Shown: piece by piece, positions 45,162-46,256 of the stretch
Numbering within the stretch: the first letter of the stretch is position 1
How the letters are laid out: the number at the start of each line of letters is the position of its first letter
Origin: Acidimicrobiaceae bacterium
GTDB taxonomy: Bacteria > Actinomycetota > Acidimicrobiia > Acidimicrobiales > UBA8592
Assembly: GCA_002709645.1 (NCBI GenBank)
Contig: PAQG01000042.1
Span: 1 to 46,256, forward strand
Reading direction: 5' to 3'
Length of the DNA: 46,256 bases
Program-made: the position numbers and the translations under genes
The notes under the pieces: model-generated
Database searches by the model: none
What the model was told of the DNA's origin: nothing
What the model saw: the letters and a program-made list of their open reading frames with translations, nothing else

Positions 45162-45902
45162 CTACCCACTGTTTAGCACGTTTAGGACTTCATCTAGGAG
45201 TTCTGAGTGGCAAATTACTAAACCTCGGACTATCGGAGCTTTTTTATTGAATTTAAAGTCGCTTCCATCTAACTGACAGGCAGAAAGTCCGGCTGCTCGA
45301 GCAACTGCAACAGGTGCACAAACATCCCATTCATATAGTCCAGAATTATGAATATACACGTCAGCATCTTCGCCGATTACAAGTGAAGCTTTAATTCCAG
45401 CTGATCCACAACTTGCCAAACGCGCTCCTATAGCTTCGGCCACATAAGCGGCTTGATATGCATTCCACCTGTTAGAGACGACAATTCTTTCTTCTCGAAT
45501 TTGTCGTTCATCGGGGTATCGCATTGCTGTTGAATAATGCCTATTTAGAGATGGGCATGAGACCGCTCCTGCTTTCAGTTCTCCATCTTCTATGAGCGCA
45601 ACATGTACCGCCCATTCATCGCTCCCGTTATAAGGATAATCTTGAGAGCCATCTAGTGGATCGATTATCCAAACACGATCAGCATCAAGCCGTCTCTGGT
45701 CGTCACTCCCCTCTTCAGATAAAACAGCGTCTTGGGGGCGATGTCGCGAAAGTTGTTCTATCAATAAGTTATGGGAAATCAAGTCCCCTTTATCTCGCAA
45801 TACCCAAGAGTTAGTTCCTGATCTGATCCCCTCTTGACGGAAATGTAGTAATTCAGCACCTGCTAATTCAGCCAGGTATCCAGCCAATTCATGGTCATCC
45901 AT
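45162..45902 (-). CDS. Inositol monophosphatase family phosphatase (CysQ-like)
   Basis: 246 residues. Metal-binding motifs are SEEGSDD (first Glu) near 57-63, WIIDPLDGSQDYPY near 74-87 and YEWDVCAPVAVARAAG near 190-205, the three signatures of the Mg-dependent FIG superfamily. The DPLDGS followed by a short loop suits 3'(2'),5'-bisphosphate nucleotidases (CysQ), but inositol-1-phosphatase is also possible. It follows the ArsC-family gene by 11 bases on the same strand. Confidence 0.88.
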   Translation of the reverse strand: MDDHELAGYLAELAGAELLHFRQEGIRSGTNSWVLRDKGDLISHNLLIEQLSRHRPQDAVLSEEGSDDQRRLDADRVWIIDPLDGSQDYPYNGSDEWAVHVALIEDGELKAGAVSCPSLNRHYSTAMRYPDERQIREERIVVSNRWNAYQAAYVAEAIGARLASCGSAGIKASLVIGEDADVYIHNSGLYEWDVCAPVAVARAAGLSACQLDGSDFKFNKKAPIVRGLVICHSELLDEVLNVLNSG

Positions 45903-45913
45903 TAAACTCGCAA

Positions 45914-46256
45914 TCAGGATAGGAAATCTGTTATTCGATCTTTAGGTCTACCAATAATTGCTTTCTTGCCTTTGACAATCACTGGCCTTTGAAGAAGTTG
46001 CTTGTGTTTCACTAAAATTTCCACAACTTTTGTAGGAGCGTTAACGTAGTCATCGGGATTAAGTTCAAGTTTCTTAAACATAGAATCCTTCCTCACCAAG
46101 TCTTCTACTGGGTCTTCTAACCCATTGACAATAGCGTTAAGTATTTTCTCATCTGGTGGTTCTTTGATGTACAACACAACTTCGTAATCTACTCCGATTT
46201 CCTCAGCGACCGCTAAGGCATTTCGTGATGAACCTCAATGAGGGTTGTGATAAATA
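45914..46256 (-). CDS. arsC: Probable selenoprotein: ArsC-family reductase (partial)
   Basis: The gene runs off the right edge; 113 residues are visible, with a family length near 120-140. The visible N-terminus reads IYHNPH, then TGA (46235-46237), then GSSRNALAVAEEIG. This aligns exactly with ITIYHNPAC-GTSRNTL of E. coli ArsC, so TGA replaces the catalytic Cys12 codon and would give selenocysteine. Downstream family features are intact: VVLYIKEPP, VRKD near Arg60, and LLQRPVIVKG with GRP, which hold the Arg residues. A strong SECIS-like hairpin lies at 46201-46218. A TTG at 46175-46177 could be taken as a start but would delete the active site. A Spx/YffB-like thiol reductase is an alternative role. 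Confidence 0.8.
46201..46218 (-). promoter_or_regulatory. Candidate bacterial SECIS element (ArsC-family gene)
   Basis: On the minus strand CCTTAGCGGTCGCTGAGG folds into a 7-bp stem (one U-G) with the apical loop GGUC. The G-U lies 24 bases after the TGA, inside the usual window, and GGUC is also found in the loop region of the E. coli fdhF SECIS. It lies within coding sequence in the ArsC frame, as bacterial SECIS elements do. Confidence 0.7.

Follow-up and report, generated by a model that had tools for sequence, protein, structure and literature searches.

The gene cut off by the right end of the analysed DNA encodes, judging from its sequence and that of its relatives, almost certainly a selenoprotein of the glutaredoxin-type ArsC family, in the UxxS form. 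We infer insertion of selenocysteine (Sec) at the ArsC catalytic position because three lines of evidence coincide: the in-frame TGA is conserved, the SECIS hairpin after it covaries, and the genome encodes all parts of the Sec machinery. The gene is a fresh member of the UxxS arsenate-reductase selenoprotein family already catalogued from sea water. In the following, the window refers to the whole stretch of 46,256 nucleotides that was analysed. The features needed for the argument are:

45917..46255, minus strand: coding frame of the ArsC-family selenoprotein, 113 codons visible, the first few lying beyond the contig end
46235..46237, minus strand: in-frame TGA, read as selenocysteine and aligned with the catalytic Cys12 of E. 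coli ArsC
46201..46218, minus strand: SECIS hairpin with a 7-bp stem (CCTTAGC/GCTGAGG) and a GGUC apical loop
45914-45916, minus strand: stop TGA of the ArsC-family frame
45162..45902, minus strand: CysQ-like / inositol monophosphatase-family gene, following the ArsC-family gene at a distance of 11 bp

In the open reading frames of the window, the minus strand reads IYHNPH-TGA-GSSRNALAVAEE..., and with Sec written as U the frame from 46255 to 45917 becomes IYHNPH-U-GSSRNALAVAEEIGVDYEVVLYIKEPPDEK..., continuing to its TGA stop. The only internal stop is the single TGA at the position of the catalytic Cys, and UGSS represents a UxxS motif in a protein of PF03960 (pfam03960). Contig C42, part of a 1.83-Mb genome that is 85% complete, ends at the right end of the window (46256), and therefore the start codon of the gene is absent from the assembly. 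In relatives whose loci are not cut by a contig end, the gene opens with a start codon that lies a few codons ahead of the I.

Assignment to the ArsC family was clear with Pfam ArsC (PF03960; 58.1 bits against a curated cut-off of 24, E 1e-15). The TIGR00014 equivalog scored 98.9 against a cut-off of 106.05, for a query that lacked its true start and had Cys put for Sec. By sequence, the nearest solved structures were arsenate reductases, followed by Spx. The protein belongs to the same family as ArsC of the E. coli plasmid R773 (a glutaredoxin-dependent arsenate reductase, PDB 1I9D), and equivalents of its H8, R60, R94 and R107 are present; nearly every member keeps the three Arg of the E. 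coli arsenate site. The R773 reference sequence used for this residue mapping agrees with the PDB rows of the structure comparison. Different from R773 ArsC, Sec replaces Cys12, the sequence likeness is only distant, and neither an ars operon nor a known arsenite pump was found here. The nucleophile is likely to be of ArsC type; arsenate would be the substrate by default, by homology only.

The neighbouring genes leave room for another physiological role, in which the selenoprotein would not be an arsenate reductase but a thiol oxidoreductase of sulfur metabolism, co-transcribed with the PAP/inositol-phosphate phosphatase (cysQ-like). We give this reading a real, if minority, chance. The tandem of the Sec-ArsC and cysQ-like genes, the second lying a few bases after the first, is kept in 12 close marine relatives (L002-L006, L008-L011, L015, L016 and L026), the comparison covering relatives with sequence beyond the gene; the close relative L007 ends at a contig end. 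No Acr3 or ArsB match was detected in the genome, and the arsenic-detoxification role is thereby weakened, while no ars gene appeared among the 25 commonest neighbour families of the more distant relatives. Against this stand the three Arg of the arsenate site mentioned above, the incompleteness of the genome, and the absence of the cysQ tandem beyond the close relatives. Elsewhere in the genome, a low-molecular-weight phosphatase-family protein is encoded.

The Sec-containing ArsC assignment as such is supported by conservation of the TGA across genomes. A genome scan for relatives returned 34 loci. The TGA was found at the same codon in all 28 of the 28 nearest loci, with protein identities of 64-86% over the full length, which bears out the first-pass claim of an in-frame TGA at the ArsC catalytic Cys. 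Five more distant loci (32-38% identity) carry Cys at this position. Within the order, 39 of 148 genomes have the TGA form and 86 have selA above the cut-off, with all 39 among the 86 (hypergeometric 5e-12 over the 148 genomes; relatedness is ignored, so that the figure is indicative only). On a protein tree with few columns, at least 2 changes between Sec and Cys were required, with a best estimate of 4. One of the loci, L083, looks like a change from Sec to Cys inside the Sec branch, and there the hairpin is absent.

Several side branches were seen in the same survey. Loci labelled Verrucomicrobia (L012, L014, L017-L025 and L028) belong to the same Sec family, at 70-81% identity to the actinobacterial gene, which from the sequences suggests either transfer between phyla or mixed bins. 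A second ArsC-family branch also has an in-frame TGA, mostly in the form NPGU-G... (L092, L094, L102, L104, L107-L109 and L113-L115); its genomes have selA, and the SECIS hairpins there are less clear. Four genomes (G054, G096, G128 and G139) carry both kinds of TGA-containing ArsC-family gene.

The same conservation bears on two further alternatives. A sequencing or assembly error, with TGT or TGC as the true codon at 46235-46237, might be suspected in an incomplete assembly with the gene at a contig end; the presence of TGA at the same place in 28 loci of other assemblies, and in more across the order, refutes it, and we consider its probability negligible. Just as improbable is that the gene is decaying into a pseudogene, or that it is shorter and starts only after the TGA. 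Gene finders blind to Sec would indeed start at 46177, the position of the first in-frame start after the internal TGA. The first-pass annotation had this position right and the codon wrong: it is GTG, and the TTG named there is the next codon, at 46174. However, the relatives conserve the IYHNPH upstream of the TGA and have a start codon ahead of it, the 64-86% protein identity extends across the whole length, and constraint at the codon level acts on loop and stem. A pseudogene or a short gene is thus refuted, since both sides of the TGA are conserved.

The codon-level constraint leads to the SECIS element of the Sec-containing gene. With column numbers starting at the T of the TGA, CCTTAGC-GGTC-GCTGAGG occupies columns 20-37. 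The first-pass annotation had described a strong SECIS-like hairpin. As a single sequence its folding energy is unremarkable (z = -1.43, with 21 of 200 shuffles folding as well), but pairing and covariation across genomes show the hairpin to be real. Among 47 distinct genes, the stem was paired in 99.4% of cells and the covariation was 0.266 compared to 0.140 for shuffles, with three pairs changed on both sides; when the stem was slid by 1-3 columns, pairing was nowhere near as good. The compensatory replacements run from U-A to C-G or G-C, from C-G to U-A and from G-C to A-U, and some replacements in the stem alter amino acids, as in L078, L086 and L087 (GCC GTG GCG GTC GCC ACG). The Ala-Val codons across the loop are GCG in 47/47 and GTC in 47/47 genes, and the rest of the same genes uses these codons at 29% and 36%. 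By its sequence, the hairpin fits a SelB-binding element with a G at the start of the loop, and its small loop with G within the first two bases agrees with what is expected of a bacterial SECIS. An Rfam search of the window at gathering level gave no matches.

In a sister branch (L029, L070, L072, L075, L080, L082, L084, L085 and L090) the usual GGUC hairpin is lost. There, a hairpin CAATGC-CGTG[C/A]-GCATTG lies about 5-6 bases nearer to the TGA (columns 15-31 of alignment A3) and is nearly invariant in the nine genes. Thus, in these Ilumatobacter-like genomes and their relatives the SECIS appears to have been re-established in a different register, as far as the alignment can tell. For two TGA-containing loci, L071 and L081, neither hairpin type was obvious as a strong structure following the TGA.

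The genome also encodes selA, selB, selC and selD, which answers the question of Sec machinery raised in the first-pass annotation. In detail, selB (313 bits) and selA (380 bits) adjoin on contig C10, which also carries a tRNA-Sec (66.6 bits, anticodon TCA), and selD (363 bits) is found on C15 with an in-frame TGA of its own. The latter gene (L054, G000:C15:20762-21682) has this TGA in the N-terminal active-site region (GSGUGCK), and from this reading selD of the host genome is probably a selenoprotein as well. Genome-wide reassignment of TGA, e.g. to Trp or Gly, instead of local recoding found no supporting point and is refuted by the use of TGA as an ordinary stop (it terminates 17 of the 37 ORFs in the window that are at least 200 aa long), with tRNA-Sec and SelA/SelB also speaking against it, making it the least credible of all alternatives.

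For the ArsC-family selenoprotein, the following mechanism can be proposed. Firstly, SelB would bind the hairpin and insert Sec at the internal TGA. Secondly, as the fold family suggests, Sec would attack an oxyanion or an oxidised thiol as nucleophile, with the Arg equivalents of R60, R94 and R107 holding the substrate, and a low-molecular-weight thiol or a redoxin would afterwards regenerate the Sec. The conserved cysQ-like tandem together with the lack of Acr3/ArsB hints at sulfur assimilation. A broader proposal is that the widespread Sec form is a selenium-dependent thiol/oxyanion reductase tied to sulfur assimilation rather than an arsenate reductase, with its SECIS re-registered in one sister branch; we advance it tentatively and hold it to be rather unlikely.

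An arsenate-reductase-like selenoprotein is not new, contrary to what the first-pass annotation implied. A UxxS arsenate reductase selenoprotein with a SECIS was described by Zhang, Fomenko and Gladyshev in 2005 from 14 Sargasso Sea sequences (PMC1088965), and the Global Ocean Sampling (GOS) study of 2008 listed 'ArsC 1' (UxxS, pfam03960) with 77 sequences (PMC2398784). Reviews of 2022 (PMC9312934) and 2026 (PMC13188914) list the UxxS arsenate reductase under COG1393 / TIGR00014, the latter describing biological functions as largely uncharacterised. The gene shares with the Sargasso Sea/GOS family its family membership, the UxxS motif, Sec at the catalytic Cys, a bacterial SECIS immediately downstream and marine origin. 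There is no essential difference, except that here a marine Acidimicrobiales genome, its Sec machinery and the neighbouring genes are given. 'Arsenate reductase 2', or arsenate reductase-like selenoprotein (cd03032, PMC2398784; NF041106, PMC13188914), is likewise an ArsC-like selenoprotein, but it has UxxC whereas the gene described here has UxxS. A literature search on Acidimicrobiales selenoproteins found no paper within the collection searched. The additions made here are small: the host (marine Acidimicrobiales, also Verrucomicrobia), the conserved cysQ-like tandem, the absence of any Acr3 or ArsB match in an incomplete genome, and the register shift of the sister-branch hairpin.

Altogether, a selenoprotein family so far seen chiefly in anonymous ocean reads is given named hosts, Acidimicrobiales and Verrucomicrobia, in which standard annotation would lose the active site of the Sec-ArsC genes. 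For the function of the family, the neighbouring genes suggest a test that does not involve arsenate.
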